DNA of 64,000 nucleotides from Flavobacterium sp. N2270 (GTDB lineage Bacteria > Bacteroidota > Bacteroidia > Flavobacteriales > Flavobacteriaceae). The notes under the pieces were generated by a model. It worked only from the letters and a program-made list of their open reading frames with translations, was not told the DNA's origin and did not search any database. Shown one piece after another: positions 6,130 to 21,748 of the stretch. Position 1 is the stretch's first letter. Every line of letters begins with the position of its first letter. The stretch is taken from assembly GCF_025947225.1 (NCBI RefSeq), contig NZ_CP110005.1, forward strand, positions 1,674,001-1,738,000, read 5' to 3'. The position numbers were made by a program, and so were the translations under genes.

Positions 6130-6151
6130 GTTACCATTTGCTTTTCAGCTC

Positions 6152-6168: not shown

Positions 6169-6221
6169 TGTATTCCATTTCTAACCGATTGATATTATTA
6201 GCTTTAATAATTTTAAAAATC

Positions 6222-6405: not shown

Positions 6406-6609
6406 TCATCCAATAATTAAAGGTTGAACTTGTTCAATCTTTAAGCTTGTATATTGGCAGAACTCTTCAACTGATACAAACTCATTTTCAAGCTTATTTA
6501 GGTCGTTTCGCATTTTTTGCAACATTCTAGCACTCTGTCTATAACTTTTGCCTGTAATGAGTTGTATGTCCTTTGGGTAGATACAAATCCTCTTATTTTC
6601 AAATTTCAT
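6406..6609 (-). CDS. Small conserved Bacteroidota protein, possibly DNA-binding
   Basis: 67 residues, charged and helical (YPKDIQLITGKSYRQSARML, then EFVSVEEFCQYTSL). The YPKDI...GKS.RQA-like start and the short helical body resemble helix-turn-helix or excisionase-type factors found near integrases in Flavobacterium elements. No cysteine cluster or membrane segment is present. It is the first gene inside the left end of the second element. An excisionase or regulator role is inference. Confidence 0.55.
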   Translation of the reverse strand: MKFENKRICIYPKDIQLITGKSYRQSARMLQKMRNDLNKLENEFVSVEEFCQYTSLKIEQVQPLIIG

Positions 6610-6755
6610 ACACTATCTATGCCTTTGACTAGGCTTTGAATTACTTAAAACTAGTCGGTTAATTAATTTAAACAGTGTAAAATTAAGTAATATTTGAACT
6701 GGTTCAGAAACGATAGTTGAACTTGTCTCAGTGTATTTTATGTCAATTATGGACA

Positions 6756-6778
6756 AATGTGTCATGTAGTGACACATT
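6756..6778. promoter_or_regulatory. Perfect 9-bp palindrome upstream of the + strand operon
   Basis: aatgtgtca (6756-6764) and tgacacatt (6770-6778) form a perfect inverted repeat with a 5-base spacer, 117 bases before the start at 6895. The size and symmetry fit an operator for a dimeric regulator. No clear TAnnTTTG box was found next to it. Confidence 0.35.
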
Positions 6779-6894
6779 GTTTTGACGGTGTTGTTTATAG
6801 TTTAAATTTTGTTTTAAAATCAATCTAAAAGTGTTGCAACGTGATGATGATTGAATGAGTTTTTAACTGATTTATTAATGAAATTTTTAATGTT

Positions 6895-7653
6895 ATGGCT
6901 AGACAGAAAGGCATAATTAAATTAAAAGGTACTATCGGAGATATTACTTTTTACAAAACCCAAGACGGACATTTAGCTCGTGAGAAAGGTGGAATTGATG
7001 CTAGTAGAATTGCTAGCGATCCTGCGTTTCAAAGAACGCGTGAGAATGGTTCGGAGTTTGGAAGAGCTGGAAAAGCTGGTAAGCTTTTAAGAACGGCTCT
7101 TAGACCGTTACTTTTAAATTCTGCTGATGGTAGAATGGTGAGTAGACTTACTCAAAGAATGGTGAAAGTTATTCAAGCGGATTTAGTGAGTGAGAGAGGT
7201 TTGAGAAATGTTATTGATGGAGAAGCTGAATTGTTATTTGGTTTTGAATTCAATATTCGTGGTAAGCTTGGAACTTCTTTATTTGCTCCTTATGTAGCAA
7301 CTATTGATCGAGCAGCTGGAGAAATTAAAGTGGATTTGGCATCATTTATTCCTGCGAATATGATTGCAGCTCCTAGTGGAACTACTCACTTTAAAATTAT
7401 TTCTGGAGGTGCAGAAGTTGATTTTGAAACGGAAACTTTTGTAGTTTCTAGTTCTGAAACTGCGATTTTACCTTGGGATAATACAGCTACTGCTGCAATA
7501 AACCAAGTGAATGCTGTTACTCCTGCAAGTACAAAACCATTGTTTTTGGCTGTTGGAGTTGAATTTTATCAAGAAATTAATGGACAAATGTATCCTTTGA
7601 AAAATGGTGCTTTTAATCCGTTATCACTTGCTAAAGTTGATGGTGGTGTGTAA
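6895..7653 (+). CDS. Conserved Bacteroidota protein of unknown function
   Basis: 252 residues with no signal peptide or membrane helix. The basic N-terminus (MARQKGIIKLKGTIGDITFY) is followed by an Arg-rich segment to about residue 80, then a Ser/Thr-rich beta-type C-terminal half. It is of a kind found in Bacteroidota mobile elements, often before DUF5675 genes; I do not recognise a function. Its stop overlaps the next start by one base (TAATG), so the two are translationally coupled. A phage-derived structural or delivery role is possible but not shown. Confidence 0.7.
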   Translation: MARQKGIIKLKGTIGDITFYKTQDGHLAREKGGIDASRIASDPAFQRTRENGSEFGRAGKAGKLLRTALRPLLLNSADGRMVSRLTQRMVKVIQADLVSERGLRNVIDGEAELLFGFEFNIRGKLGTSLFAPYVATIDRAAGEIKVDLASFIPANMIAAPSGTTHFKIISGGAEVDFETETFVVSSSETAILPWDNTATAAINQVNAVTPASTKPLFLAVGVEFYQEINGQMYPLKNGAFNPLSLAKVDGGV

Positions 7654-8045
7654 TGGTTATTCATTTAACTAGAACTTATTTCCCTTACGGAACAAACGGA
7701 AAACTCGAATGTGAAGGTAAATTTATTTGTTATACGATTGAATTACCTTGGAAGAATAATGAAAAGAGAGTTTCCTGCATTCCGGTAGGGAAATATTTTA
7801 TTAGAAAGCGATATAGTCAAAAATTCAAATGGCATTTAGAAGTTTTAGATGTAGAAAATAGAAGTTTTATTTTATTTCATCCTGCTAATAATGCATTAAG
7901 AGAATTGAATGGTTGTATTGCTCCGGTGACAAAACTTTCTGGTCCAGGATTAGGACTAATGTCACGAAAAGCATTTGAAAAGCTAAAAACGTTAGTTTAT
8001 CAAGCTTTGGACAATAAAGAAAGTGTTGAATTGATTGTTGAATAG
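7653..8045 (+). CDS. DUF5675 family protein
   Basis: 130 residues. It has the family layout: an N-terminal strand region with TYFPYGTNGKL, then IPVGKY, then a conserved segment with His76 and the Gly87-Cys88 pair (FHPANNALRELNGCI). The His...Gly-Cys spacing recalls the His/Cys arrangement of YkuD-like L,D-transpeptidases, but the usual Ser-His-Gly-Cys order is not complete, so enzyme activity is only a hypothesis. Coupled to the preceding gene by TAATG and followed after 35 bases by two tiny membrane-protein genes. Confidence 0.75.
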   Translation: MVIHLTRTYFPYGTNGKLECEGKFICYTIELPWKNNEKRVSCIPVGKYFIRKRYSQKFKWHLEVLDVENRSFILFHPANNALRELNGCIAPVTKLSGPGLGLMSRKAFEKLKTLVYQALDNKESVELIVE

Positions 8046-8080
8046 ATTCCCATTTTCATGGGAATGAAAAAATATAAATT

Positions 8081-8296
8081 ATGAAAAAAATTGTAAATAG
8101 AGCTACAGCTCCTACTCCAAAGTTTTTTAAAGTGCTTCGAAATGTTGGTTTGGTTTTGGCAGCTGTTGGTGGAACGATTTTAGCTGCTCCAATTGCCTTG
8201 CCAGTATTAGTTACAACTATTGGAGGTTATATGGCAGTTGCTGGAGGAGTTTTGACAGCAACTAGTCAGCTTACTACAACTGATGACAGCGAATAA
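8081..8296 (+). CDS. Small hydrophobic membrane protein
   Basis: 71 residues. A basic N-terminus is followed by a long Ala/Gly/Val-rich hydrophobic stretch (about 20-60), enough for one or two helices, and an acidic tail TTDDSE. Size and composition are holin-like. It follows DUF5675, and the next small membrane gene starts inside its 3' end. The annotation as holin-like is inference from size and context. Confidence 0.6.
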   Translation: MKKIVNRATAPTPKFFKVLRNVGLVLAAVGGTILAAPIALPVLVTTIGGYMAVAGGVLTATSQLTTTDDSE

Positions 8297-8459
8297 CCAT
8301 ACTTTAATGGGAACTGCTGGAGGCACATTTTTAAGTATAGTACCCAATATAAATTCTGATGATATTGCAAAAACTATTATATTAGCTACTGTTGGAGCAA
8401 TTGTCAGTTTTACAATTTCGTTACTGCTTAAAAGCCTACAAAAGAAGCACAAAAAATAA
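8283..8459 (+). CDS. Tiny membrane protein overlapping the previous gene
   Basis: 58 residues (starts MTANNHTLMGTAGG, ends KSLQKKHKK). One clear helix spans about residues 26-48 (AKTIILATVGAIVSFTISLLL), with a basic cytoplasmic-type tail. It overlaps the end of the preceding gene by 14 bases, typical of coupled small genes in phage-like cassettes. It is followed by a terminator-like hairpin at 8501-8530. Small holin or spanin-like roles are possible; nothing in the sequence proves them. Confidence 0.55.
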   Translation: MTANNHTLMGTAGGTFLSIVPNINSDDIAKTIILATVGAIVSFTISLLLKSLQKKHKK

Positions 8460-8500
8460 GTTTAACTCTTGTTGTGGTGACCTTTGGGTTAAACAAAATG

Positions 8501-8530
8501 AAAGCCAAGTCGAAAGACCTGGCTTTTTTT
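8501..8530 (+). terminator. Rho-independent terminator of the DUF5675 operon
   Basis: aaagccaagtc/gacctggcttt forms an 11-bp stem with one mismatch around a gaaa loop, followed by a run of T. It ends the + strand operon and also touches the 3' end of the converging DUF6943-like gene. Confidence 0.7.
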
Positions 8531-8951
8531 ATCTATTACAATATCGATATAAAATGACTTTACGCATATCGTTGATAAGATTTAGATTTTCATGGAAACG
8601 TTTTTCAGATTGTTCTAAAAGCTTTAAAGTTTGAACGTTTTTAAGGTGTTCTTCGTGGTCTTTTATCTCTTGATTTACTTTGTTTGGAAATTCTTTTCTA
8701 ACATCGTGTAAGCGTAAAAAAGGAATTACAGAACCACAAAGAAACTGATGCCAGAATTTTGTTTTCCAAAGTGCATAAGCTGTTAAATTGATGTTGTCAA
8801 AATCTTCTTTATTCTCGAAAATGATAACAAAACTATTTGTGAATGGCTCATTTGAAGGCTTTCCACTGTTTAATCCTTTGTTTAAAATGAATAGGTGTGG
8901 ATTTTTGTAAATCGTTCCTTTAGTGTAGGTTTTAATGACAAATTTTAGCAT
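8529..8951 (-). CDS. DUF6943-like conserved hypothetical protein
   Basis: 140 residues. The N-terminal part reads NPHLFILNKGLNSGKPSNEP, a pattern I associate with DUF6943 proteins of Bacteroidota mobile elements. The C-terminal half is helical with His/Glu clusters (KDHEEHLKNVQTLKLLEQSE). No signal peptide. It converges on the DUF5675 operon and sits between that operon and the gene-free hairpin region. Function unknown. Confidence 0.6.
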   Translation of the reverse strand: MLKFVIKTYTKGTIYKNPHLFILNKGLNSGKPSNEPFTNSFVIIFENKEDFDNINLTAYALWKTKFWHQFLCGSVIPFLRLHDVRKEFPNKVNQEIKDHEEHLKNVQTLKLLEQSEKRFHENLNLINDMRKVILYRYCNR

Positions 8952-9093
8952 AACATCGGCTTTTAAAAATTGATTAGATTTTCAATTTTCTACGGTGTTT
9001 CTTATGAAATGCAGGTTTGCCTCGCTATGCTCCGCACACATAAATTTTTCAAAAGAAAAAAAGAAAAAAAAGAAAGCCGTATTTTCAAGTGGA

Positions 9094-9192
9094 AGGTTTC
9101 AAAAAAGCAAGTTTTTCGGATAAAATACTACCTGATAAGGTGGAGATTTTATCCGAAACCTGAAAGGCTTGAACTTGCTTTTTTGAATACCT
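9094..9192. repeat. Hairpin 1: triple nested stem
   Basis: Arms ttcaaaaaagcaagtt (9098-9113) and aacttgcttttttgaa (9172-9187) pair perfectly and extend outward by aggt/acct past one bulged base. Inside, tcggataaaat (9116-9126) pairs with attttatccga (9146-9156), and acct/aggt (9130-9141) closes a gata loop. The T-run after the right arm could also act as a terminator. Confidence 0.7.
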
Positions 9193-9327
9193 GGAACTTA
9201 TCTTTGCTTCCTTTTTTTTATTTATTTTTTTTGAATTTCCAATCAATTATTGTTTTGAAATCGGATGTTGTTTTGGATACGTTCTATCTACCGAGGTTGT
9301 GTTTTGGAATGTGGGAAGTTGTTTAAA

Positions 9328-9409
9328 GGGTATTGAATTATAAAACAGGATAAATAACCATAGGCAAATTAATATGAATACTTTTATCCTGTTTTAAAAT
9401 TTAATACTC
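9328..9409. repeat. Hairpin 2: 27-position stem
   Basis: 9328-9354 pairs with 9383-9409. The inner 13 bp (aaacaggataaa type) are perfect. Two of the outer pairs are G-T on the + strand, and there is one A-A mismatch. Confidence 0.7.
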
Positions 9410-9593
9410 TTTTGTGGATTTGATTTTTGAGGATGCCTTTAGGTCAGTTGGCAGTAGCAGTGTTCAGTTAGCAGAAAAGTATCTTATGGAAATGGGAAGC
9501 ATCTTCAAAAAACAATGCATTATCATACCTAGTGCGATGAGGCAGTAGCGTAGGCAAGTGTGTGATTTTTTATTTGCTTATGGGGTTGTTGTG

Positions 9594-9700
9594 ATTGCTT
9601 TTATGTTGGATAGATGCCTGATATGCGATTGAGAACATATGCTTCAATAACTTTAAATGTACCTAGTATCGTTATGGCATCTGTCCAACGTGAAAGCAAT
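9594..9700. repeat. Hairpin 4: 25-position stem with three wobbles
   Basis: 9594-9618 (attgcttttatgttgg...) pairs with 9676-9700 (ggcatctgtccaacgtg...). All 25 positions pair on the + strand, three of them as G-T. On the minus strand the same three would be A-C mismatches. The 57-base loop itself holds a smaller gatatgc/catatgc pairing. Confidence 0.7.
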
Positions 9701-9944
9701 GGAGTTCGTGGTTTCTGGCAAATGAAAAATCATACTCTTGCTGACTCTTTTTGTATTTGTGGGTGCCAGAAAATAATTAGCAAAGTAGAGTTATGAATTA
9801 TGAATTGGGTTGTTTTGGAAATGTAGCACGCACAAAAACAATGAAAATACTACCTATGTCTGCGGTTAGTTTATAAAACAATACTACTAGTCATGCGATA
9901 TAAAAATTATCTAACTACTAAAAATATGCAACGGATTATTGAAA

Positions 9945-10024
9945 GTGGTTTGTGAAGGACGGTGTTTTTTGTAGCTGGGTGATGCGATGGGAGCTGCAAA
10001 AAATGTTGTCCTGGAACAAACCAC
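9945..10024. repeat. Hairpin 6: interrupted stem with four consecutive wobbles
   Basis: gtggtttgt (9945-9953) pairs with acaaaccac (10016-10024), aggac with gtcct, ttttttg with caaaaaa, and agct with agct. Between the second and third blocks, ggtg faces tgtt as four G-T pairs in a row, and a fifth G-T lies next to agct. A short asymmetric loop separates the outer block. Confidence 0.7.
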
Positions 10025-10048
10025 ACGAGCGGTGGGTGTGCGGCTTTT

Positions 10049-10131
10049 TTACATAATGTTATTATAGTGCATCCTTTGGTTTCATTAGATGCAGGATATT
10101 TGTTTATGCACTATAATGCCACATTATGTAA
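10049..10131. repeat. Hairpin 7: ttacataatgt nested stem
   Basis: ttacataatgt at 10049-10059 pairs with acattatgtaa at 10121-10131, and attatagtgcat (10061-10072) with atgcactataat (10106-10117), both perfect. I recall acattatgtaac-type ends from other Flavobacteriaceae accessory loci but cannot verify that here. Confidence 0.7.
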
Positions 10132-10367
10132 CTAAGCTTGGGAGAAAAAATTACTGGCATGAGTTGCGAAGCGTACGTGTTTTTGTTTTGAGCGTTGGGC
10201 AAGCTCTTTGACTGATGGCTTATTGGATTTTTCTTTTTAAACAAAACGTTTTAGCCAACAGACAAAGTGCTTGATGTGCGTTGGGACAAAAACCATGACA
10301 GTAATTTTTTTAGGAGCGTTGGCAAAGGAGTGGCAATTGGAAAGAGATTTTAATTCATTTATTTTAA

Positions 10368-10393
10368 CCTTTTCTACCCACCTTTTCTACCCA
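10368..10393. repeat. 13-base tandem repeat just after the AlbA_2 gene
   Basis: ccttttctaccca occurs twice head to tail directly downstream of the stop codon. The 12-base version inside the gene (about 10593-10616) encodes the repeated Trp-Val-Glu-Lys linker (KWVEKWVE). The downstream copy is therefore an echo of a coding repeat outside the reading frame. Confidence 0.6.
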
Positions 10394-10394
10394 C

Positions 10395-11774
10395 TTATGG
10401 TAATTTAAAATGAATAACCCAGTATCCACCTTTAGCACCTTTCATTCTTTCTAGTATGCCTAAATCTTTTAAGAAAAGCAAGTTTTTGTCAATAGCAGAA
10501 AGGCTTAACCCAATATTATCTGATAGCTCACGAATGGTGATTTTACTGTTTTTATGAATATTTTTTAGAATATCAACTCTATTTTCCGTTAGGTTTTCTA
10601 CCCACTTTTCTACCCACTTTTCGAAGTCGAAAGGTCTTCTTAATGTAACCGTAAACATTCCATCAATACTAAATTCAGGAGGAGTTAATCCTTCATCATT
10701 CATTACATCACGAATACGAGTAATACCTGAACCTATTTGTTCTACTAAACGCATTCTTTCGAATAAGCCAAAAATTAGTGGATTTCTACTAGCACTTCTT
10801 TTACCAAATTCATTTCTTGGAACAGCACTTATTAAACCACCAGGATTTGATATTTCTACACGATCATCGAAAACTTCGATTGTTATTCTAGCTCCTTTAT
10901 CGTAATAATCTCGGTGTGCTAATGAATTTATAATTATTTCTTTAAAAGCTATTTCTGGAATTTCCCATAATTCTTTTCTTGGATTACCACCTTCGCTTTC
11001 TATTTCATATCTGACATCCAATTTTGATTTTAACCAAATCATACTTTGCAAGTATTGTTGATATAATGTTCCGGACATTACTTTATCATCAACAATATAT
11101 CTTTTATCAATACCATCAAAAACTACACAACGAATAACTGCTTTTTCAAAAAACTGTTCGGGATTGTTTCCAAAAAATAAAATAGTACCATTTTTTAAAT
11201 GGCCATCGTTTGCAATTAGTTTTAAGTTTGTAAATAATTGTTCGTCTGAAGTTGTATTGACTAAACCTGCTTCGAATCTAAATGTTTTGATGTTTTCTTC
11301 TGATATGTCTTTTTCTATACTAGCATTTATACAAGAAGCATCATCAAAATAAATTTTACCTGTTTGTTGAAAAAAGTCTCTCATCTCTTCAGGTGTTGTT
11401 AATTTCTGTGAATTTGGACCTTGACGAACGTAAATTGCACCTGATAGAACATAAGGTTTGTTTTGACCAGATGGCACTTCGATAACTGCTACATTTAAAC
11501 CCTCTACGTCAACAATGTAGAATTCACATTTTAGTGATGGAGAGATTTCATTTATAGAATTTTGCAAAGCTGAACGCTTACCATTATCAATAGTTATTCC
11601 TTTAATGTTATTTGCATCATCAACACCAATTAACACAACACCACCTGAAGCATTAGCAAAAGCACATACTTCTTCGGTAATTCCTTTTACATTACTTGGA
11701 ATACTAACTTTGAATTCGGCATTATAGCCTTCTCCAGCAGCTGCTATTGATTTTATTTCGGTTGGGCTTAACAT
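10395..11774 (-). CDS. AlbA_2 / divergent AAA_4 ATP-binding regulator with C-terminal winged helix
   Basis: 459 residues. The N-terminal AlbA_2 (Schlafen-like) domain has YNAEFKVSIP (about 18-27) and AFANASGGVVLIGVDD (38-53). A GHKL-type ATPase-like C-terminal domain follows (EIIINSLAHRDYYDKG and VEISNPGGL, about 275-312; GSGITRIRD about 345), and a winged-helix domain ends the protein (about 405-455). A KWVEKWVE repeat forms the linker, as often in this family. Such proteins are putative DNA- or RNA-binding regulators and recur in defence islands. It starts 10 bases after the methyltransferase stop, so it is probably the last gene of that operon. Confidence 0.85.
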   Translation of the reverse strand: MLSPTEIKSIAAAGEGYNAEFKVSIPSNVKGITEEVCAFANASGGVVLIGVDDANNIKGITIDNGKRSALQNSINEISPSLKCEFYIVDVEGLNVAVIEVPSGQNKPYVLSGAIYVRQGPNSQKLTTPEEMRDFFQQTGKIYFDDASCINASIEKDISEENIKTFRFEAGLVNTTSDEQLFTNLKLIANDGHLKNGTILFFGNNPEQFFEKAVIRCVVFDGIDKRYIVDDKVMSGTLYQQYLQSMIWLKSKLDVRYEIESEGGNPRKELWEIPEIAFKEIIINSLAHRDYYDKGARITIEVFDDRVEISNPGGLISAVPRNEFGKRSASRNPLIFGLFERMRLVEQIGSGITRIRDVMNDEGLTPPEFSIDGMFTVTLRRPFDFEKWVEKWVENLTENRVDILKNIHKNSKITIRELSDNIGLSLSAIDKNLLFLKDLGILERMKGAKGGYWVIHFKLP

Positions 11775-11784
11775 GTCTTTTTAA

Positions 11785-13623
11785 TTAAAATTGAATGTCA
11801 TATCTCTCCTCAAAAAAACTATCTAATTTACTTTTGTTTTGTTCATTAATAATATATGTTTTTTCTTCATCTGAAAAATCATAAACTCCAAAATTCTTAA
11901 TATAATTTCTACTCAAAGAATAATAATCAGAGCCATAGGGTTTACTTGTGTTTTTTATATAAAACCAAAATATTTTAGAACTCATAAGTTTTTGTAAAAA
12001 GAATAAATCATTTTCATTTTCTGTGACAACTGCTAATCCATTATGAAATAATAAATTTTCATCTGTGTTAATTACATAATTTGGTATATCAGGAGTTATG
12101 TGAGGAAAAAATAGTTTGAATTTTAATTTTTCTAATGATTGATTTCTTCCATATGCATACCAGTTTTCATAGTTTCCTTCTCCTTTATCTCTCTGAGCTA
12201 GTAAGTCTTCTTTTGATTTTAAATAATTATATGAAAAAGGAAATTTCTTTTTAAAGATGTCTTCATCAATTAATTGAACTTTACGATTGATATGCAGATA
12301 TGGAAATATTAATTTTCTATTAATTTCTTTTACGTTATCAATTTTTGTAAACTTGTTAGGATTAATAATGTTTTTACATATACCCTTTTCAATTGGAAAA
12401 ACTTCACCATTAAATTTTAGATAATAAAACTCTTTATCTTCATTGACTGGATTAAAAATATAGATATTATTCTTTAATGTTGCTATCCCATTTCTTGTTT
12501 TAAATAATTCTCCTAATGGTTTACCTGTTTTTTCTATCTTATTAATTAAAGTAGTTTCTTCTAAATTCCAACCATTTTTGAATTCTAAATCATCATAAAT
12601 TAATGAATTATATTTATAGCTAATTTTTAAACTATTGGTCTTTATATAATTTAAAAATTCACTTTGATTATTTTCAATTAAACAAATACATGTGTAAGTA
12701 GATTTACTTTTAAAAATTTGTTTTGTTCCAAAATCAATTATTTTAAATGTTAGTTTCTTCTTCTGAAAATATTCTCTTAATGCTCTACCATTTACACTTT
12801 TGAAAAAAGTATTCATTGTTATATAACCAAGGATACCATCTATTGATAAATTTTCAATACCAATTTGAAAAAATGGAATATATAAATCAGGATGTCCTGT
12901 TGAACATACTTCCCATTTAGAAAGATGAACTTTTGTATTGGCAGGAATATTTCTTGAACACACATACGGAGGATTACCGACAATACATTTAAATCCGTTA
13001 AAATCATTAATGTTATTAGTCCATTTAAATTCTAGAGCATCACCTGTATAAATATTATAATTAAGTAAAACATTGTCCTCACCATTAAAAATAGCAAGTA
13101 ATGTCAATACAATTTTTGTTCGATCTGTTGAATATTTCTGTATGTCTAGTCCAAATATATTATCCCTAATAATTTCAAAAAAACTCCTGTTTGTATTTTT
13201 ATTAATAAATAAAGCAGCTTCATATAAAAAGCTCCCGCATCCACATGATATATCTGCTATTTTAAAATTTTCATCGATGTTTTTATCAAAAAGAGTTTGC
13301 TTGATAATATACTCTCTTATTTTTTTTGGAGTATATATTGCACCAGTAATAATTTTATCATCTGGAGAAATAACAAATTCAAATAGTTCAATTAAAGTTT
13401 CTAAATCAAACTTTTTTATTTTAACTTTTATAATTTCAATAAATTTATCTAAAGCTTTGTTTTCAACTATATCATTTTCTGTAATTATATATTTTTTAAT
13501 AAATACGTTATTGTAAATTTCTATTTTATTAAATCTTAAAAATGAAGAAACAATCAACCTATCGACTAGTATAGTATCGGTAGTATAATTATTTTGTAAG
13601 TAATTAAATATTTCTTTATTCAT
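11785..13623 (-). CDS. DNA N6-adenine methyltransferase, Eco57I/TaqI-like, without visible nuclease
   Basis: 612 residues from the ATG at 13623, which stands two bases after the stop of the gene before it. A longer in-frame start at 13689 would overlap that gene by 64 bases. A helical N-terminal region (about 1-95) is followed by GAIYTPKKI (94-102), motif I ADISCGCGSF (123-132) and motif IV NPPY (217-220). The C-terminal third looks like a TaqI-type target-recognition domain. It transfers methyl from S-adenosylmethionine to adenine in a target sequence. No PD-(D/E)xK motif was seen at the N-terminus, so it is not an obvious type IIG restriction-modification fusion. It is the fifth gene of the tight operon. 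Confidence 0.88.
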   Translation of the reverse strand: MNKEIFNYLQNNYTTDTILVDRLIVSSFLRFNKIEIYNNVFIKKYIITENDIVENKALDKFIEIIKVKIKKFDLETLIELFEFVISPDDKIITGAIYTPKKIREYIIKQTLFDKNIDENFKIADISCGCGSFLYEAALFINKNTNRSFFEIIRDNIFGLDIQKYSTDRTKIVLTLLAIFNGEDNVLLNYNIYTGDALEFKWTNNINDFNGFKCIVGNPPYVCSRNIPANTKVHLSKWEVCSTGHPDLYIPFFQIGIENLSIDGILGYITMNTFFKSVNGRALREYFQKKKLTFKIIDFGTKQIFKSKSTYTCICLIENNQSEFLNYIKTNSLKISYKYNSLIYDDLEFKNGWNLEETTLINKIEKTGKPLGELFKTRNGIATLKNNIYIFNPVNEDKEFYYLKFNGEVFPIEKGICKNIINPNKFTKIDNVKEINRKLIFPYLHINRKVQLIDEDIFKKKFPFSYNYLKSKEDLLAQRDKGEGNYENWYAYGRNQSLEKLKFKLFFPHITPDIPNYVINTDENLLFHNGLAVVTENENDLFFLQKLMSSKIFWFYIKNTSKPYGSDYYSLSRNYIKNFGVYDFSDEEKTYIINEQNKSKLDSFFEERYDIQF

Positions 13624-13625
13624 TT

Positions 13626-14369
13626 TTAAATAATTGTTGGACATAAATGTTGTTTTGACCAACAAATATTTGCAATATCGTATGTCCAATTACTAGCAAT
13701 AGTATGATAATATGGTTTTAATATTTTATTTTGATATACTTTATATATTGATGAAAAATAACCATCATCCATAATATTATCAAAAGCAAATGGAAAAAAA
13801 TTTGAAGTTAATAAACCTATACCTAAAATTAAATCTACTGGGTGGTGTACTATTCTAGGAGTATCAAGGAATAAAGTATTTCCATATTGAAATTCATCCT
13901 CATCTAGTGGGTTGCTTGCGATTTGAAGATGATATGTAGGATGTGGTTCAGTTGCTACTTTTGAAGGATCGTGTTTGTCAATATGAAAACAGAAGTAATG
14001 AGGTTGATCCCCAATACCACGAATTACTGCATTAAAATTCAAATCTATTAAAGGGTCATTTAAATCATTCCAATTTTTATAATTAGCCACTAATTTCATA
14101 TTTAATATTAGCTCTACTTTTTTATGATTTATACCCTTTGGACGCATGTGTTTAGTTGTGTCAACTGGGATTATTAAATCACAAATCTCATAACCCCATA
14201 AATCATCATTGGTCGTACCATCTTTTAAAAAAGGAGCTCTTTTTCTTAATTCTTCAGCGGCTATATAAATTGGAGTTGTTAAAATACTTCCTGAAAAAAC
14301 GCTTTCAATAATTTTAGCTGCAGTGATTAAGTCGTCCGCTCTAGATTGTCTAAATTGTTCAATTTTCAT
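13626..14369 (-). CDS. Protein of unknown function in the GHKL/receiver/methyltransferase operon
   Basis: 247 residues, no family recognised. It is soluble, with no signal peptide. The central region carries a His/Asp-rich stretch (YFCFHIDKHDP, about 126-136) and, a few residues on, EPHPTYHLQ, then RIVHHPVDLI, then conserved-looking aromatic positions to the end. The clustered His and Asp residues could form a metal site, which would fit an enzymatic effector, but no known nuclease or hydrolase motif is complete. Start and stop are fixed by the neighbours: four bases overlap with the receiver gene (ATGA) and a two-base gap to the methyltransferase. Confidence 0.8.
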   Translation of the reverse strand: MKIEQFRQSRADDLITAAKIIESVFSGSILTTPIYIAAEELRKRAPFLKDGTTNDDLWGYEICDLIIPVDTTKHMRPKGINHKKVELILNMKLVANYKNWNDLNDPLIDLNFNAVIRGIGDQPHYFCFHIDKHDPSKVATEPHPTYHLQIASNPLDEDEFQYGNTLFLDTPRIVHHPVDLILGIGLLTSNFFPFAFDNIMDDGYFSSIYKVYQNKILKPYYHTIASNWTYDIANICWSKQHLCPTII

Positions 14370-15472
14370 TTAAAGCTATCTTTCATTAATTGTATCTTTT
14401 CATTTTCACTAAAATGTGGTTTTAAACCTTTCTTTTTAATTCCTTCAATTGCTATTGCGTAGAAAGATAAATACTTCGGTTCTTGCCATGGTTTTAAATC
14501 ATCACTTTGAAAAACTTTAAAACCTTCAATTGGATCTAAAGGTAGTTTTGTTTCTTCACAAATAGTCCAAAAATTTGAACTTACACAACATTCAATAGGT
14601 TCAGCTTCTTTTAAATTTTTAAGAGAAAATGCCTCTTTTAAAATTTCCACCCTTTGAATAGCATTGAGGTTTGTTAATCTTTTTCCTTTACTTACCTCCT
14701 TAAAAAAGGAATTGATTTTATCCATCCACCATCTTTCCCAACCATCATTAAATAATCCTGAAAATCTAAAAGGTGATAAATGTTGTTTTAAAGCATTCCA
14801 GTCATCTCCTGAAGCGTCAATATTAACACCAAGTCTTGATGCTAATAGACGCTCTTTAATTAATGCTCCAGGATGATTAAATATTTCCTTTATTACAAAA
14901 TGAGCATAATCATATGCAATAACTTTATTCTCTGGATCTTTAAATTTATCTGTAATTCTTGGGTCAAAATTGTAGATATCTTCTCTTTGTAAAATATCTT
15001 CTATTGTTCTGGACTTTTCATTAAGCCATTTGTAGCCGTTTGCCAAAGAATTTAATTTTTTTGAAAATCTTTCCCAATCCGGTTCGTCTCCTTTTAAAAA
15101 CTTATAATCAAACAAATCATGACTTGTTTTATCAGCATCATAAGTAGCTCGCATTCTTTCATCTGTAGAGCATAGAATTATAGGTAACGACTTTAAATTC
15201 ATTTCAGGTTCTGATACAGCCATCCTAAGCTCTTGTGCAATAGATGGAGCATTATATGCAACATCCAATTGCATATTTTGATTTAATCTGAAATCTAAAA
15301 TTAAACCATCATAATCTTTTAATTTTGTTGACAAATCTTTTATCTGCTCCTTAAAATTCATTGGTTGTTCAACATCAATATCGATAATACCTTCATCTAC
15401 AAAACCATCTCTAATAGCGGTTACGGACTCGTCATTTTCATCATCTATATATAAGTATTTAAATTTGCTCAT
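14366..15472 (-). CDS. Response-regulator receiver protein with a long unknown C-terminal domain
   Basis: 368 residues. Residues 1-140 form a CheY-like receiver with the full site: acidic pair Asp10-Asp11, phospho-acceptor Asp60 (GLILDFRL), Ser102/Thr103 (LCSTDE) and Lys127 (FLKGD). The remaining 230 residues are helical with no recognised DNA-binding motif, so this is not a standard transcription factor. The gene overlaps the kinase gene by 14 bases and the unknown gene by 4. By position it is the phosphotransfer partner of the preceding kinase-like ATPase. Confidence 0.85.
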   Translation of the reverse strand: MSKFKYLYIDDENDESVTAIRDGFVDEGIIDIDVEQPMNFKEQIKDLSTKLKDYDGLILDFRLNQNMQLDVAYNAPSIAQELRMAVSEPEMNLKSLPIILCSTDERMRATYDADKTSHDLFDYKFLKGDEPDWERFSKKLNSLANGYKWLNEKSRTIEDILQREDIYNFDPRITDKFKDPENKVIAYDYAHFVIKEIFNHPGALIKERLLASRLGVNIDASGDDWNALKQHLSPFRFSGLFNDGWERWWMDKINSFFKEVSKGKRLTNLNAIQRVEILKEAFSLKNLKEAEPIECCVSSNFWTICEETKLPLDPIEGFKVFQSDDLKPWQEPKYLSFYAIAIEGIKKKGLKPHFSENEKIQLMKDSFK

Positions 15473-17774
15473 TATTAATATTTTCAGGGATTTCTACTCT
15501 AATTGTTGTACTAAAATTATTTTCTGTTTCTGCTACATAAATAGTACCGTTGTAGCTCTCAATAATGTCTTTTAAAATTTTAAGTCCGAGACCAGTTCCT
15601 GTTAAAGAATCTACTTCAGAATCTTGATGACTAGATGCACTTGAAGTAGTGAAAAAAGCATTAAAAATTTTATCCTCATCTTTTTTATTTATACCATCTC
15701 CATTATCTGAAAATTCTAAGTAAACATTATTATTATCTCTACCACATTTTATAAATAACTCCCCTTTAACACCTTTACGTTTAATCGCTTTTTTTGAATT
15801 TGTATAAAAATTAAATAGAATTGAAGACCATTCTGAAGGATGCATAGGTATAGTGTATAAATCAAAATCATTAAATACTGGCTTGCGAAGTATAATACCA
15901 GACCTCTCAATATCTTTTTTAATAACATCCATAAAATCATTAACAGCATTCCTTAATTCGATAGGCTCTAATTCTCTAAAAACATTTCTTGAAATTGCTC
16001 TATCAAAATATGATGTATATGCAGTGAAAGATTTAATATTTGTTTCCAATCTTTCAACACGATTGAGAGCTTCAGCATAGTCTTTAACAACTTTTTTTAG
16101 AAATCTTGTATCTGTATCAAAACCAGGTAAAAATCTTTTTACTTCATGAACAAATTCACCGATGACTAAACCTAATGCAGCTAATATTCGTAACATGTTA
16201 ATCTCTTCAATTAACTTTTGTTTTTCAATTTCTTCTTCTTCTCGAGCTTGCTTAAACTCTTCAAAAGCTTTATTAAATTTTTCTTTTTTATCACTATGTT
16301 TTTTTGAATCTAAGTGTTCATTCTCATCAGTTTCTTCTTCTTCAAAAATTTCTTTTATCTTTTCAATAGCTGTGTCAACTTTTTTAGATGGATTTTCTGT
16401 TTTTTCCCAATTTTTTTGACTTGTTGTAGATTTTCGTCCTCTTAAATCTGCAATTTTAATTACCGCACTGATTAAACATCTTTGAGTGAAATTAACTAAT
16501 TCTTGAAATGCCTCATTTTCAAAAAGGCCTTCTCTACTTGAAGTTTCATCAAATAAAAGTCCTGACTCATCAGTGATCTCAACAAAACCAAAAAAATTAA
16601 TATTTCTATGAGATGATAGAATTACTCTTTTTGCTGTTGATTCGTCTAACCCTAGCCAATCATTTAATTTTTCACCATAAGGAGGAACTCTAAAACCGTT
16701 TCTATACATTCTAACACCACCACGTTCATTTGCAACTTCTCGAATAAACGTCATCGTTTGAGTAGGTATTAATGAACTGTCATATAAAAAGTAGTAACAT
16801 TTAAAATGAACTCCTTTTATAAAATTAAATTTTGATTCTGGTGAATCTTTTTCTTTTCCAATTAAAAAAACTTCTTGGGGAAAATTTAGTTTTTCACTTT
16901 CTAATGACCAACATCCTTGACCATCTTCTAATACATAACCTTCAATTTCCGCTAATGCATGCTTTAAGAAAGCTTCTTCTTCGTCAATAATTAAATTATC
17001 TTCTGATATATATTCTCTGTAATATGAACTATTAAAACCAGGATCTATTTTAATTTTATCCTTTTCTTTTCTCTCTTTAGAAAGAGGAAAGGGTTGTAAT
17101 AAATCTGAAGTATACCTATAAACTTTTTTTATTGTAGCATCACTCCAACCTTCTCTTAAATTTTCAATAATTAAATTTGTACCTTCTTCTTTCTCTTTTG
17201 CAATAAGCTCAATTGAATTTGAAATAGTAGAAAGGTCTATATCAGAGGCAAATTTTTTCCAGTCTATTGATATTTTTAAGGCATAATCTAAGTCTGATTT
17301 TTGAGTAATTATAGTTAATTTATCTCCTAAACGTTGAGTAGCAAATCTTCCAATTCCTTTTCTTCCAGCTCTTATTCTTTGATACTTATTTGAAATTGGA
17401 TTATGAATTTTTTCAGAAGATGATAGTCGCATAAAACCATTGACTAACTCTTCTTTATTCATACCGGTACCATCATCAATAATCTCTAAAGTTCCACCTT
17501 TATTCCAAGCGTTTATATAAATTAATTTAACATTTTTGGCATCAGCATCGTAGGCATTCTTTACTAATTCAGAAACTGCTGTTTCTTGACGTCCAACAAG
17601 TTCTTTACCTAATCTATTTATTATTCCTGCATCAACAGAAAATCTTACATTAGAATCATCTAATTTGGCAATTTCATTTGATAAAGATATAATAACACTA
17701 TTATCAGAAACATCTTTTGATATTTCTTCTGTTAATTTCTTTTTTAATTCTATTAATTTAGAAGTACTTTCCAT
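15459..17774 (-). CDS. Double-GHKL protein: Hsp90/MORC-like N-terminal ATPase plus C-terminal histidine kinase
   Basis: 771 residues. The N-terminal GHKL ATPase has the N box ELVKNAYDADA (Asn73), DDGTGM (100-105) and the lid GRKGIGRFAT (137-146), as in Hsp90, MutL and MORC proteins. A middle domain runs to about 460, then a charged coiled-coil-like linker (about 465-525). The C-terminal kinase has the H box GEFVHEVKR (His543), N box around FNFYTNSKKA (653-662), G1 SDNGDGI (689-695), FNAFFTTS and G2 GTGLGLKI (726-733). No membrane segment, so it senses a cytoplasmic signal. It starts 3 bases after the XRE gene. Confidence 0.9.
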   Translation of the reverse strand: MESTSKLIELKKKLTEEISKDVSDNSVIISLSNEIAKLDDSNVRFSVDAGIINRLGKELVGRQETAVSELVKNAYDADAKNVKLIYINAWNKGGTLEIIDDGTGMNKEELVNGFMRLSSSEKIHNPISNKYQRIRAGRKGIGRFATQRLGDKLTIITQKSDLDYALKISIDWKKFASDIDLSTISNSIELIAKEKEEGTNLIIENLREGWSDATIKKVYRYTSDLLQPFPLSKERKEKDKIKIDPGFNSSYYREYISEDNLIIDEEEAFLKHALAEIEGYVLEDGQGCWSLESEKLNFPQEVFLIGKEKDSPESKFNFIKGVHFKCYYFLYDSSLIPTQTMTFIREVANERGGVRMYRNGFRVPPYGEKLNDWLGLDESTAKRVILSSHRNINFFGFVEITDESGLLFDETSSREGLFENEAFQELVNFTQRCLISAVIKIADLRGRKSTTSQKNWEKTENPSKKVDTAIEKIKEIFEEEETDENEHLDSKKHSDKKEKFNKAFEEFKQAREEEEIEKQKLIEEINMLRILAALGLVIGEFVHEVKRFLPGFDTDTRFLKKVVKDYAEALNRVERLETNIKSFTAYTSYFDRAISRNVFRELEPIELRNAVNDFMDVIKKDIERSGIILRKPVFNDFDLYTIPMHPSEWSSILFNFYTNSKKAIKRKGVKGELFIKCGRDNNNVYLEFSDNGDGINKKDEDKIFNAFFTTSSASSHQDSEVDSLTGTGLGLKILKDIIESYNGTIYVAETENNFSTTIRVEIPENINNEQI

Positions 17775-17777
17775 AGG

Positions 17778-17981
17778 TTATTTATCATTTATTAATTCTG
17801 AAATACTTATTTCAAGTAATTCAGAAATTTTAGAGAGTGTATTTAATGTAGGTTGTACATCATTAGTACACCACCTTGAAATAGTCGCCTCATTTTTTCC
17901 TAATTGTTCAGCAAGCCATTTACTAGTCAAGTTCTTTTCAGCTAATACTACTTTCAATCGATTAATTGCTTTTTTACTCAT
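17778..17981 (-). CDS. XRE-family helix-turn-helix regulator
   Basis: 67 residues, almost entirely a Cro/CI-type HTH (LTSKWLAEQLGKNEATISRW, about 18-37). It is the first gene of the tight operon, 3 bases before the ATPase/kinase gene. A 17-base palindrome (17986-18002) with an overlapping -7 box stands immediately upstream, so it probably represses its own operon. Confidence 0.88.
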   Translation of the reverse strand: MSKKAINRLKVVLAEKNLTSKWLAEQLGKNEATISRWCTNDVQPTLNTLSKISELLEISISELINDK

Positions 17982-17985
17982 AAAG

Positions 17986-18006
17986 TTTGCATTATATGCA
18001 AATATA
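17986..18006 (-). promoter_or_regulatory. Palindromic operator overlapping a -7 promoter box of the XRE operon
   Basis: tttgcattatatgcaaa (17986-18002) has perfect 7-bp arms around a 3-base centre. On the minus strand TATATTTG (reverse of 17999-18006) matches the Bacteroidota -7 consensus TAnnTTTG, and its TTTG is half of the palindrome. A regulator bound here would block transcription starting about 10 bases before the ATG at 17981. No well-spaced -33 TTG was found. Confidence 0.5.
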
Positions 18007-18016
18007 TTGAATTTAA

Positions 18017-18652
18017 TTACAATTCAGAAGTATTAATATTATCTAAATAATACTGAAATTCATATAATTCAATGAGTTCTTCTATTTGATTTGGCATTTT
18101 AGCAAGTTGAACAAAATTGATTTTTTCGCAAATTGATTTTTCTCCTAATAAGTCTTTAAGTATAATATATATAATTTGTTTAAATGTTTTAGTATTGCAA
18201 CGAATGTAGTAGTTTTTTAAGTAAATGATAATGTCTAATTCTTTAGAGTTTACATCATAGTCGAGTGGAAGAAACTTTACTTGATTAGTTTTGATTGTTA
18301 ATTCTTGGATAACATAATGATCGTCTAATCTTTCTATGATTTTATCTATTTTTTCGGTGAGTTGAATAAATACTATAAATCTCCAGTTTCTTAAAACAGG
18401 AGCATTGTTGATTAGTTGGATTACTTGGTCGAAGTATTCCGGATTACCGTTTGCTGTAATGATGAGTTCTGATTTTTGATTTACCTTTTTTGGTAATACA
18501 ATAATAAAATCTAATTCTTTACAATAATACCCTAATTGCTTGTTTAACCAATAGCATATTTGGTTTTGATTGTGTTGTGTTTCGTTGATTAGGTTTTTTA
18601 TGGTTTGGTTGTTGTCTTGGAACCAGTTCCAGAAGATGTTTATTTTTCTCAT
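18017..18652 (-). CDS. Conserved hypothetical protein
   Basis: 211 residues, soluble, aromatic- and Asn-rich. It begins MRKINIFWNWFQDNNQTI and has a central SELIITANGNPEYFDQVIQL followed by NWRFIVFIQL. I have seen this layout in uncharacterised Bacteroidota proteins but can assign no function. It ends 35 bases before the XRE start, so the XRE operator lies in the gap. It may be transcribed separately from the downstream operon. Confidence 0.7.
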   Translation of the reverse strand: MRKINIFWNWFQDNNQTIKNLINETQHNQNQICYWLNKQLGYYCKELDFIIVLPKKVNQKSELIITANGNPEYFDQVIQLINNAPVLRNWRFIVFIQLTEKIDKIIERLDDHYVIQELTIKTNQVKFLPLDYDVNSKELDIIIYLKNYYIRCNTKTFKQIIYIILKDLLGEKSICEKINFVQLAKMPNQIEELIELYEFQYYLDNINTSEL

Positions 18653-18781
18653 GATTTAGTTAATTTTAAGTTGATGGTTTGCAGTTATTATTTATTGTCC
18701 CTCGACTGCGCTCGGGATGACGGTAAGGTACTTCGACAAGCTAAGTGTGACAAGAGTTTGCTTCGTTCCTCGCAATGACGG
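18653..18781. repeat. Dispersed Flavobacterium-type intergenic repeat
   Basis: The spacer contains ccctcgactgcgctcgggat and gcttcgttcctcgcaatgac, GC-rich phrases of the kind scattered between genes in Flavobacterium genomes. ctcg/cgag arms suggest small hairpins. No coding sequence. Confidence 0.4.
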
Positions 18782-19393
18782 TTAGCGTTTGTCTTGTGTT
18801 GTTTTGTCGAATGCGATGAGGTTTAGCATGGCTCTAAATCTTGAGCGAACTCGATTGCCATACATGGTTTCTATTTCTGAAGCTGATAGGTTTGTTGTTA
18901 TATGGGTTTTTACTTTTCTGGAGATGAATAGATCATATCTTGATAAGATTATTTCTGCCATCACATTACATTCATTTCCATAGTATTTTAGATTACTTTC
19001 TACTCCTAAATCGTCAAAACAATAGTTTTTATATTCTGATTGAGAATAGCTTCCACGACTGTATCGGTGAATTATTTCATAGCCTTCTTTTATGAATTCA
19101 AAACTTATATCTCGACAGGTTTTTAGGTAGAATTTATTCTCTTTTGGAGCAACATATTTCATTAGTGTCATTAATGTAGTTTTACCACAACCCACTGGTC
19201 CAGAAAGTAGAATTCCTTTTGTTAAATCTATGCCTAATTGATTGGTAGTTTCCTCATCGTTTAAGAAGTAAGCGATTAGTTTTGTAATGTTAGCTATGTC
19301 TTGTTCCAAGAATTGAAATTTTTCTCCATAATCTTGTTTGGCTTTTTGTTCTAGCCATGTTAAGATTTCTGGGTAGTTGTATTTTGAACTCAT
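18782..19393 (-). CDS. DnaC/IstB-like P-loop ATPase of the element
   Basis: 203 residues. Walker A is GPVGCGKT (65-72) and Walker B is around NYCFDDLGVE. The C-terminal TNLSASEIETMYGNRVRSR fits the DnaC/IstB sensor region. Such ATPases lie beside Rep-like genes in Bacteroidota integrative elements, where they probably load a helicase or assist element replication after excision. Next gene upstream is the Rep-like protein. Confidence 0.8.
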   Translation of the reverse strand: MSSKYNYPEILTWLEQKAKQDYGEKFQFLEQDIANITKLIAYFLNDEETTNQLGIDLTKGILLSGPVGCGKTTLMTLMKYVAPKENKFYLKTCRDISFEFIKEGYEIIHRYSRGSYSQSEYKNYCFDDLGVESNLKYYGNECNVMAEIILSRYDLFISRKVKTHITTNLSASEIETMYGNRVRSRFRAMLNLIAFDKTTQDKR

Positions 19394-19445
19394 AGTTGAT
19401 AGTTAACGGTTAACAGTTTACAGATTGTTTGTAATAAGAACAGAT

Positions 19446-19496
19446 CCTGAAACAAGTTCAGGATGACAGTTGAAGAGAACCTGAAACAAGTTCAGG
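19446..19496. repeat. Two copies of a 17-base palindromic repeat
   Basis: cctgaaacaagttcagg at 19446-19462 and 19480-19496, with a third identical copy at 20358-20374. Each is an inverted repeat (cctgaa/ttcagg with a short centre). The second copy abuts the stop codon of the Rep-like gene. Confidence 0.6.
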
Positions 19497-20303
19497 TTAA
19501 AGTGGTTCTGCATAGTTTTTATCCTCAGTAACTTGTAAGTGTTTGGCTCTTGGTTGTTCTTTTGTTTGTAGATTTTGTGGAAGATTAACTGTGAATTTTG
19601 CTGTATTCAACATCCAATTTCGAGCTGCTGCATGCCAATCTATCATTTTAGTTTTACCACCAATTAACCAACCATTACTTGTGTAATAATTGTAAAATCG
19701 TTCTGCTTCAAATTCTGAATACTCTTGTTGTTTGAAATATTCTTTGACTTGTTCTAAACTTGGCTTTTCGGCTTTTTCTTTTTTTGCGGAACTTTTTTCT
19801 TTTTTATTATTTATACTTAAAATAAAATCATCTTGATTAAAAATTTTAAAATTGTTGTCTATAGATATGTTTTCATTGTTTTTAGATGTTTTTGTATTAT
19901 TATATATATTGGGTTCATCAACTTGTTCAGCACCATTGCTATTGGCTAGGTCATTTATTGGTTGGGTTTGGTCAATAATTGAACTGGTTTGGTTTTTAAA
20001 AACACTTTTTCTATCTGATAGATCATGTAATATTACTTCTGAACCGGAATACGGATTGTATGATGGTAAATATTCTATAAAGCCCATACTTTGCAATTCT
20101 TTAATACACTTATGATAAGTAGCTTTTGAAGCTATTCTACTGGTTTTCATCATTTCTTCTCTAGAAATAGTTATTGGGTTTTTAAAACGATTGATATTCC
20201 AACTTTGGAATAAGGCAATGTATAGACTTATGTGTGTTGGATAAATGGTTTCTTGAGATGCAATGCGAATGAAGAAACCGGTTAGGTGTTTGATGTAATT
20301 CAT
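19497..20303 (-). CDS. Rep-like / replication-initiation or DnaD-type protein
   Basis: 268 residues. An N-terminal winged-helix-like region (about 1-95, with ISREEMMKTSRIASKATYHK and LQSMGFIEY) is followed by a low-complexity Asn/Lys-rich linker and a C-terminal segment (EYFKQQEYSEFEAERFYNYY...WHAAARNWML) shared with Bacteroidota element replication proteins. It precedes the DnaC-like ATPase, as in phage and element replication modules. Exact family not certain. Confidence 0.7.
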   Translation of the reverse strand: MNYIKHLTGFFIRIASQETIYPTHISLYIALFQSWNINRFKNPITISREEMMKTSRIASKATYHKCIKELQSMGFIEYLPSYNPYSGSEVILHDLSDRKSVFKNQTSSIIDQTQPINDLANSNGAEQVDEPNIYNNTKTSKNNENISIDNNFKIFNQDDFILSINNKKEKSSAKKEKAEKPSLEQVKEYFKQQEYSEFEAERFYNYYTSNGWLIGGKTKMIDWHAAARNWMLNTAKFTVNLPQNLQTKEQPRAKHLQVTEDKNYAEPL

Positions 20304-20307
20304 TTTG

Positions 20308-20374
20308 TTAGTGATAAGTGACTAGTAATTAGTGATAAGTGACTAGTATTATTAGAACCTGAAACAAGTTCAGG
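20308..20374. repeat. Tandem and palindromic intergenic repeats
   Basis: agtgataagtgactagt is present twice in direct order (about 20308-20345), followed by the third copy of cctgaaacaagttcagg (20358-20374). Non-coding. Confidence 0.5.
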
Positions 20375-20389
20375 TTGACAAATACATTT

Positions 20390-20677
20390 TTACTTAAAAA
20401 GAGTTGGAACTGCATGTACTTTATTTCCGTTCAGTAGTTTTTCGATGTCTGCATTGTCGTAATACATGATACCGCCAACTTTGGTATAGGTTAGTGTGCC
20501 GTTAATTCTTAAATTTTGTAAAGTTCCTGGAGAAATATTTAACAGCTTTCTGACTTCTTTAGATTTGAGCCACTGTTTTTGCTGTTGGGGTTTTGAATGA
20601 ATGATTTCTTTTAAATCATTTAGGAGAAGACTACGGAATTCGTTTAAGTCTTCGCGTGTAATAACTTCGATTGCCAT
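20390..20677 (-). CDS. Excisionase-type (HTH_17) DNA-binding protein
   Basis: 95 residues. A MerR/Xis-type winged helix is visible in WLKSKEVRKLLNISPGTLQN (about 36-55), then the wing LTYTKVGGIMYYDNADIEKLL. Such proteins bend DNA at attachment sites or regulate element genes in CTnDOT-like elements. It lies between the RteC gene and the Rep-like gene. Confidence 0.82.
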   Translation of the reverse strand: MAIEVITREDLNEFRSLLLNDLKEIIHSKPQQQKQWLKSKEVRKLLNISPGTLQNLRINGTLTYTKVGGIMYYDNADIEKLLNGNKVHAVPTLFK

Positions 20678-20766
20678 AACTGATATTTTAGATTGTTATG
20701 GTACAAATTTGTGAAGTTTGAATGGTTTTATTTCACAACGGGGTTCATGTTGTGAACGATTTTTAT

Positions 20767-21684
20767 TTAAATAACCTCATCTGAACTTTCCATTCTTTTC
20801 AATAATGCTTCATTTAATGTTGTAATGAATTTTGTGTTTTCATTCTTTCTTGCTCTAATTTCAAGGAATGCACGACGGTATTGCCCTAAATCAATTTCAA
20901 AAACATGTTCAAAATATTCAGCAATATCTTTTAAATCAGCGGCACCATTATTGAAAACACCTTTCGTATGTAAAGCATACATTAATTCAATTAATGAAAC
21001 TTTTGAGCTTGTCCAAGTCATTTTTATGTTCGGTTTGCGTTGTGATTTTTCACAAGAGTCTTTATTGTCAATCATAATAATTTGATTTTCTAAATACAAT
21101 TGGATTAAATCGTTAGCTAATATTCTAGCTACTTTGAAGTCATGAGAGGTTGAAAAAGTTTTATCGGTTTCAAAGTAATAACTATCTAATGCCATTTTAA
21201 TATCGAATTTACCTCTTAAAAAGTATTTATAATCTAAATAAGTACTTCCTGAACGGTAATATTGATAAAATTCAAGTTCGTTGTCAAAGAAAGCTTTTAG
21301 CTTTAAAAGCTCATTGTTATAATATTTTTTTAATATTCTACTTCCACCATTTGGTCTTTTCATTTCAATCTTATAAATCATATTGTTGTATATAAGTTTA
21401 GAAGAGAATTGAGGCTTTATTTCTTTAAAAAATTGGATTTCTTCAGTTTCAGATTTGAATTTGAATTTTGAAATTAAGTTTTTCAAATTAATCAATACTT
21501 TTAAAATAATTTCAATGGAACTTTCGCAACGAGTTATCTGATTATCAATTTCTAATTCGATAAAATTTAGTTGCTCGTTGAGATCGGATAATAATTTGGT
21601 TGTTTTTATATTCAATTTAGGATAAGTAGTTTTATGTTTAAATTTACAGTAGAATCTAATAGAAAATATTACTCCAGAAAGCAT
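20767..21684 (-). CDS. rteC: RteC-like element regulator
   Basis: 305 residues from the ATG at 21684. The C-terminal half has the family signature: MTWTSSKVSLIELMYALHT, GVFNNGAADLKDIAEYFEHV and YRRAFLEIRARKN. N-terminally it has LNFIELEIDNQ and FFKEIKPQFSSKLIY. In CTnDOT, RteC activates the excision operon by binding upstream of xis2c. Here it stands before a Xis-type gene, so it probably controls excision of the second element. The first 25 residues look less like the family, so the true start may be later. Confidence 0.85.
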   Translation of the reverse strand: MLSGVIFSIRFYCKFKHKTTYPKLNIKTTKLLSDLNEQLNFIELEIDNQITRCESSIEIILKVLINLKNLISKFKFKSETEEIQFFKEIKPQFSSKLIYNNMIYKIEMKRPNGGSRILKKYYNNELLKLKAFFDNELEFYQYYRSGSTYLDYKYFLRGKFDIKMALDSYYFETDKTFSTSHDFKVARILANDLIQLYLENQIIMIDNKDSCEKSQRKPNIKMTWTSSKVSLIELMYALHTKGVFNNGAADLKDIAEYFEHVFEIDLGQYRRAFLEIRARKNENTKFITTLNEALLKRMESSDEVI

Positions 21685-21748
21685 CAATTCTTCTAATAAT
21701 CCACTTGATTAAAAAAAAATTTTTCATAATTGATTTATTATTAATTAT

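Follow-up and report, generated by a model that had tools for sequence, protein, structure and literature searches.

The 64,000-nt stretch of Flavobacterium sp. N2270 DNA analysed here (the window; positions are numbered over the whole stretch) carries on its minus strand four consecutive genes, which form the core of a putative defence operon linked to DNA modification. HK (15459-17774, 771 aa) encodes a MORC/paraMORC-like N-terminal GHKL ATPase joined to a histidine kinase core; REC (14366-15472, 368 aa) has a receiver domain (aa 1-156, phospho-acceptor D60) and a conserved C-terminal domain; U (13626-14369, 247 aa) is a candidate effector with an invariant His/Asp cluster; and MT (11785-13623, 612 aa) is an Eco57I-type N6-adenine DNA methyltransferase whose C-terminal part is a target-recognition region. 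HK overlaps REC by 14 nt, REC overlaps U by 4 nt, and U and MT are separated by a gap of 2 nt. The MT open reading frame (ORF) can be read from a TTG (11785-13689, 634 aa) or from the ATG at 13623 (612 aa), of which the latter, 2 nt past the U stop, seems likelier. An earlier note on this DNA had described six tightly packed ORFs on one strand, and all six were located, no gap or overlap exceeding 14 nt, the outer two being a gene for an XRE-type regulator, 3 nt before HK, and a gene for an AlbA_2 protein, 10 nt after MT.

Eight window proteins were run through family scans. Pfam placed HATPase_c_3 at aa 64-189 of HK (6e-25) and HATPase_c at aa 651-764; the predicted phospho-His site of the kinase core is H543-E544. 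All 26 kinases compared below share H543, E544 and, in each GHKL domain, the main ATP-site residues without change, and 24 of them also have G726. Profile comparison matched the N-terminal part of HK to MORC3 and MutL and its C-terminal part to ZraS and other kinases; HK is thus MORC/paraMORC-like in having an N-terminal GHKL ATPase with intact motifs that is related to MORC and MutL. Its best NCBIfam match, the BbrUII/HgiDII restriction-enzyme family (1.3e-22, aa 44-216), covers the GHKL part, and a PADLOC match to a type II restriction-enzyme model (2.8e-13, aa 45-175) covers the GHKL region only. In Kyte-Doolittle plots, hydrophobicity over 19 residues peaks at the H-box helix in 22 of the 26 kinases, and the peak exceeds 1.6 in four, including the window HK (1.63). 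The double-GHKL kinase of the earlier note is borne out by Pfam for both domains, and by hydropathy it is without evident membrane segments and may be soluble.

REC proved to hold a true receiver fold with D60 as phospho-acceptor, as had been proposed, so that a conserved His in HK and a conserved Asp in REC provide the two elements of two-component signalling. Given the invariant residues and the receiver fold, HK is predicted to autophosphorylate and to transfer the phosphate to REC. Neither REC nor U matched a Pfam family at E 0.1, nor any PADLOC or NCBIfam model. The sole hint on the output of REC is a weak profile match of residues 183-240 to 4ham (Lmo2241; E 0.2), which we take to be a GntR-type helix-turn-helix (HTH) protein; the earlier note's statement that the receiver lacks a DNA-binding output was thus too firm. 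Residues invariant in U comprise H129-x-D131, H143-P-x-Y-H147 and P171-R172-x-x-H175-x-P177, a His/Asp cluster that faintly suggests, from the residues themselves, a metal-dependent hydrolase, for instance a nuclease. MT matched Eco57I in Pfam (8.4e-26) and MTase_II in PADLOC (2.2e-106), with 7lni/8cxz and BseCI as sequence matches in the PDB. The PADLOC type IIG model was matched at model positions 520-947 of 1011, which is the methylase part only, and no nuclease domain was detected in MT by Pfam, PADLOC or NCBIfam. The NPPY motif (N217-P-P-Y220) is invariant in 20 aligned MTs; the MT of L004, of which only the first 118 aa precede a contig end, was counted as an MT locus and omitted from this alignment.

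Scanning genome contigs with a profile of the U alignment gave 10 loci (loci carry L numbers, genomes G numbers), all ordered HK-REC-U-MT, with L004 cut in MT. Searches of whole genomes with the REC alignment found matches in 4 of 296 genomes of the order, 2 of 395 of the phylum, 8 of 246 of the family of G125 and 5 of 250 of the order of G384, these four samples overlapping, and a plasmid collection added one Hymenobacter plasmid. The final set holds 26 loci, window included, and leaves out L056 (a duplicate of L002) and L041; L001 and L012-L014 repeat, in short form, the window, L032, L033 and L034. In L048 (G822) one TGA falls within the aligned range, and the stop-free 351-aa ORF was used. 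HK-REC-U is contiguous in 26/26 loci, at spacings of -53 to +13 nt, which goes beyond chance, and MT comes next after U in 21, so that the gene order expected by the earlier note is indeed conserved in other genomes. The 17 finds made with REC only (window included; G666 repeats L002) all have HK and U, 12 with MT and five with phosphorothioation genes in or near the locus. HK, REC and U show correlated pairwise distances (r 0.86-0.93), as joint inheritance would predict. The earlier note had named kinase and receiver always found without the methyltransferase as a refuting case. Pairs without it do occur, in 5 of the 26 loci, but each of those five has phosphorothioation genes within or close to it in place of MT, in favour of a link to modification, and modification genes thereby lie in or near every one of the 26. 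HK-REC-U is thus a three-gene phosphorelay module that is conserved and linked to DNA modification, its partner being either methylation or phosphorothioation.

Of the five MT-less loci, three carry ssp genes directly upstream of HK. PADLOC identified SspB (3.5e-106), SspC (E 0) and SspD (9.2e-85) in L034, where the sspD gene overlaps HK by 22 nt; the sspBCD genes of L057, 73, 71 and 85% identical to these, end 6 nt upstream of HK; and L058 has sspC and sspD (38 and 56% identity to those of L034), overlapping HK by 13 nt, on a contig that stops in the sspB region. An SspA-like gene lies near the module in all three. The SspA-like and PbeA/PbeC-like genes stand on the strand opposite sspBCD-HK-REC-U (L034:1111-7871; L057:11166-17844). 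The other two loci have dnd-like genes. L066 holds, convergent with the module, a PAPS-reductase gene (DndC-like, Pfam), an ATPase gene with PbeC and then DndD as best PADLOC matches, and a 126-aa gene assigned to the dndE slot by position, without a family test. L065 has, upstream of HK, a gene matching DpdB (7.9e-21) and DndB (Pfam, 1.6e-13); its tie to phosphorothioation is the weakest of the five. Full-length SspE was not found in these five genomes with one SspE model.

A tree of HK was built from the 26 loci and L041. A branch with support 99/98 separates the 21 MT rows from the rest, and the Dnd pair is supported at 100/98. The modification labels need three changes on this tree, the minimum possible, which none of 200 shuffles reached. 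The kinases thus split by modification chemistry, with no free mixing. The module occurs in several Bacteroidota groups and in one Vallitalea (Bacillota) bin. The window HK is nearest to that of Halpernia humi (L002) and next to that of the Vallitalea bin (L005), other Bacteroidota being further off; this fits horizontal movement, although the L005 contig is only 8.8 kb long and could be misassigned. The kinase of L041 (L041:655-4052, G486:C134; 738 aa, HATPase_c_3 and HATPase_c) is very distant and is followed by a 393-aa protein that is receiver-like by eye and gave no hhalign match; the same contig has a HEF_HK-type/Response_reg_2 pair, and L041 is possibly a third branch.

The two outer genes of the window operon are less constant, so that the six-gene unit of the earlier note stands only in part: all six genes are there, but the core is four (HK-REC-U-MT). 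For the accessory XRE/Cro-type regulator (17778-17981, minus strand, 67 aa; Pfam HTH_26, 9e-13), relatives precede HK in 9 of the 26 loci, window included, with 73-78% identity to the window protein in six other loci, 53% in L011 and 45% in L065. Just upstream of its start, the minus strand holds a palindrome, TTTGCAT-ATA-ATGCAAA (17986-18002). Its form TTTGCAT-N3-ATGCAAA has perfect 7-bp arms in the window and in L007; a related palindrome occurs in L003, only degenerate ones in L010, L063 and L064, and none was seen in L011 or L065. Restriction-modification (R-M) systems have autoregulated controller proteins, and by analogy with these the palindrome is a candidate XRE operator, which we offer as a lead. 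The AlbA_2/Schlafen protein (10395-11774, minus strand, 459 aa) comprises SLFN_AlbA_2 and HATPase_c_4 by Pfam and a winged HTH, and is a neighbour outside the core, with a BLAST relative beside the core in one other locus (L043, 22% identity; 2/26 in all). The gene after MT was scanned in five of the 21 MT loci and encodes an AlbA_2 protein (window, L043), GmrSD_N (L011), a hydrolase-like protein (L003) or a protein with no family identified (L007). On the Hymenobacter plasmid of L043 (NZ_CP014303.1; 983-6638, 7363-15655), the module, MT and AlbA_2 gene lie beside an annotated Piwi-domain gene and an MmeI-like type IIG enzyme.

The location in a mobile element was confirmed by integrases at 4648-5940 and 39904-41169, RteC and HTH_17, together with eight cargo-flanking genes that are 70-94% identical in an element of Mariniflexile gromovii (L007), which carries the same XRE-HK-REC-U-MT cargo and a different next gene. 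Relatives of both flanks (window 18017-18652 and 8529-8951) were also found at three further places. Between them lie PtuA and PtuB (Septu), AbiEii and a HerA-like gene in L113, and AbiEi and AbiEii in L114; in L115, the 472- and 214-aa cargo proteins were scanned and gave no match. L115 (G000:C1:1639001-1656500) is a second copy, in the same genome, of the element backbone (window 4648-21687), with two genes at 97-99.6% identity and others at 32-88%, and cargo ORFs of 472, 214, 183, 130 and 149 aa. We read the insertion slot as a defence hotspot, and the Septu and AbiE cargo of related elements agrees with the defence setting that had been proposed.

Several known systems share parts of this architecture. 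Detocs is a defence system that likewise joins a kinase to a response regulator; its sensor is different, its effector degrades nucleotides, and it is not known to include a DNA methyltransferase. MT matches type II and type IIG methyltransferase models; unlike those R-M systems, the operon has no detected endonuclease domain, and a three-gene phosphorelay module adjoins MT. For BREX and DISARM, PADLOC found no PglZ, BrxC or other Drm match among the eight window proteins, apart from weak matches of MT to PglX and DrmMI. SspBCD and Dnd systems are approached by the divergent HK-REC-U operons that adjoin ssp (L034, L057, L058) or lie near dnd-like genes (L065, L066); the window carries a methyltransferase instead, and SspB, SspC and SspD, absent from its eight proteins by PADLOC, occur in related loci only. 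A further likeness is to the HEF_HK kinases, which, according to PMC8011034 (Bellieny-Rabelo et al. 2021), are linked in 91.6% to Response_reg_2 receivers, lie near type II R-M genes and are proposed to be connected to paraMORCs. Both sets have a HATPase_c_3, DHp and HATPase_c kinase adjoining a receiver gene in an R-M context, and hhalign aligned HK with HEF_HK kinases nearly end to end (E 3.6e-36, 691 columns). However, the window proteins are shorter (HK ~770 aa versus ~970-1000; REC 368 aa versus ~530-580). PF19191 (HEF_HK) had no match in the window HK at E 0.1, as against 7.1e-20 and 8.8e-29 for the kinases of L035 and L039, two HEF_HK-type loci scanned here, which lie beside R-M genes. 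PF19192 (Response_reg_2) had no Pfam match in REC and none in the genome of Flavobacterium sp. N2270, and hhalign of REC with Response_reg_2 gave a probability of 43% (E 2.4e-4, 73 columns). The portions at hand of PMC8011034 emphasise C5 methyltransferases with HNH or Vsr, name the N6/N4 class in a figure legend and describe no U counterpart, and "phosphorothio" is absent from the main text. MORC/paraMORC ATPases were placed in R-M operons by Iyer et al. (2008; PMC2292703). These ATPases share with HK the N-terminal GHKL domain, the R-M context and mobility; here the GHKL domain belongs to a protein that also holds a complete histidine kinase and that has a receiver as its partner, and none of the eight window proteins gave a Pfam match to an SFII helicase. 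HATPase and REC appear, in a legend of PMC13092281, as domains of predicted systems, one of which might be HK-REC-U. Among the matches listed in the open-licence PMC literature, no paper dealt with the HK-REC-U-MT gene set. In light of the 2021 kinase-receiver pairs, a distant counterpart beside R-M genes, and of the 2008 paraMORC ATPases in R-M operons, calling the system "undescribed" was too strong.

We infer that HK-REC-U is the attack arm of a modification-linked defence, and on balance HK-REC-U-MT is probably a mobile, R-M-like cassette that works as follows. MT, judging by its family, would methylate adenines of host DNA; the MORC-like ATPase half of HK would bind DNA or a DNA-bound complex and tell unmodified incoming DNA from host DNA; recognition would turn on the kinase core, with autophosphorylation of H543 and passage of the phosphate to D60 of REC; and phospho-REC may, via its C-terminal domain, activate or recruit U, the likely effector. 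At the phosphorothioation loci the same arm would act with modification of the Ssp or Dnd-like kind, which takes the role of MT. More tentatively, HK-REC-U could be a portable attack arm for unrelated modifications (adenine methylation, ssp- and dnd-type, and cytosine methylation in the distant HEF_HK branch), in which the mark of the lineage would be read by the MORC-like clamp and the response executed by His-Asp phosphotransfer to a new effector family. Several observations weigh against the defence cassette. No nuclease domain was found in U or in the C-terminus of REC, which was searched as part of the full-length protein, and the predicted structure of U, a moderate model (predicted local distance difference test score, pLDDT, 71), matched no solved fold. 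REC homologues in the protein database far outnumber those of U (498, 120 of them listed, versus 54), so that RECs with another third gene may exist. The Ssp clade of three rows has support of only 63/51 in the HK tree, the Dnd pair meets a very long outgroup branch and may be drawn to it, and the dnd-like genes of L065, relatives of three L066 genes, are ~9 kb away from U and ~11 kb away from HK, the DndB/DpdB-like gene being the only one adjacent to the module. Restriction could also be supplied by the Mrr endonuclease of L066 or by the PbeA and PbeC-like genes of L034 and L057, and largely the same linkage would be expected of a regulator of modification.

The last point leads to a reading in which HK-REC-U senses the state of DNA and tunes the modification genes, with neighbours (Pbe, Mrr, GmrSD and AlbA_2 proteins) restricting. 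Two-component systems usually regulate transcription, the weak match of REC to 4ham would suit this reading, as would the regulated operon that the XRE gene and its palindrome suggest, and so would the Pbe and Mrr genes just named; yet the differing genes after MT in the five loci scanned leave MT without a constant other partner, and U, always present, resembles no known regulator family. We therefore regard such a regulator as unlikely. Similarly improbable is abortive infection, in which the relay would sense either phage or that modification has been lost, the cell would be poisoned by U or by the C-terminus of REC, and MT would be the self-marker or antidote. The AbiE-type genes of the same hotspot, the lack of a nuclease-family or solved-fold match for U, and a His/Asp cluster that suits many hydrolases all speak for it, but HK, REC, U and MT matched no toxin family in Pfam or PADLOC, and the association with two sorts of modification argues that DNA is the thing discriminated. 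That ordinary two-component signalling and an orphan methyltransferase merely travel together on a mobile element, without functional connection, is very hard to credit: the window copy is on such an element, but the genes are contiguous and mostly overlapping across several Bacteroidota groups and the Vallitalea bin, the HK tree sets the kinases linked to MT, Ssp and Dnd apart from one another, and modification genes accompany all loci, a frequency that we judge, with no probability computed, too high for chance.

In restriction enzymes, recognition of the DNA mark and cleavage normally take place in a single complex. If HK-REC-U is the portable attack arm outlined above, restriction would instead be decided by signal transduction and not by direct nuclease recognition. 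A phosphorelay placed between recognition and response would bring in a switch, amplification and an effector of its own. It would also give the R-M-linked kinase-receiver pairs of 2021 a testable role, and the use of one arm with both methylation and phosphorothioation raises the question of how self DNA is recognised. The MORC-like half of HK connects the module to the origin of eukaryotic MORC proteins.

Beside the element, the stretch at 21749-41169 encodes, as judged by eye from translations, a metallophosphatase-like protein of 1222 aa, ABC transporters, an MBL-fold protein and an efflux-like set, and reaches the integrase that adjoins a tRNA-Ser gene (41430-41515).

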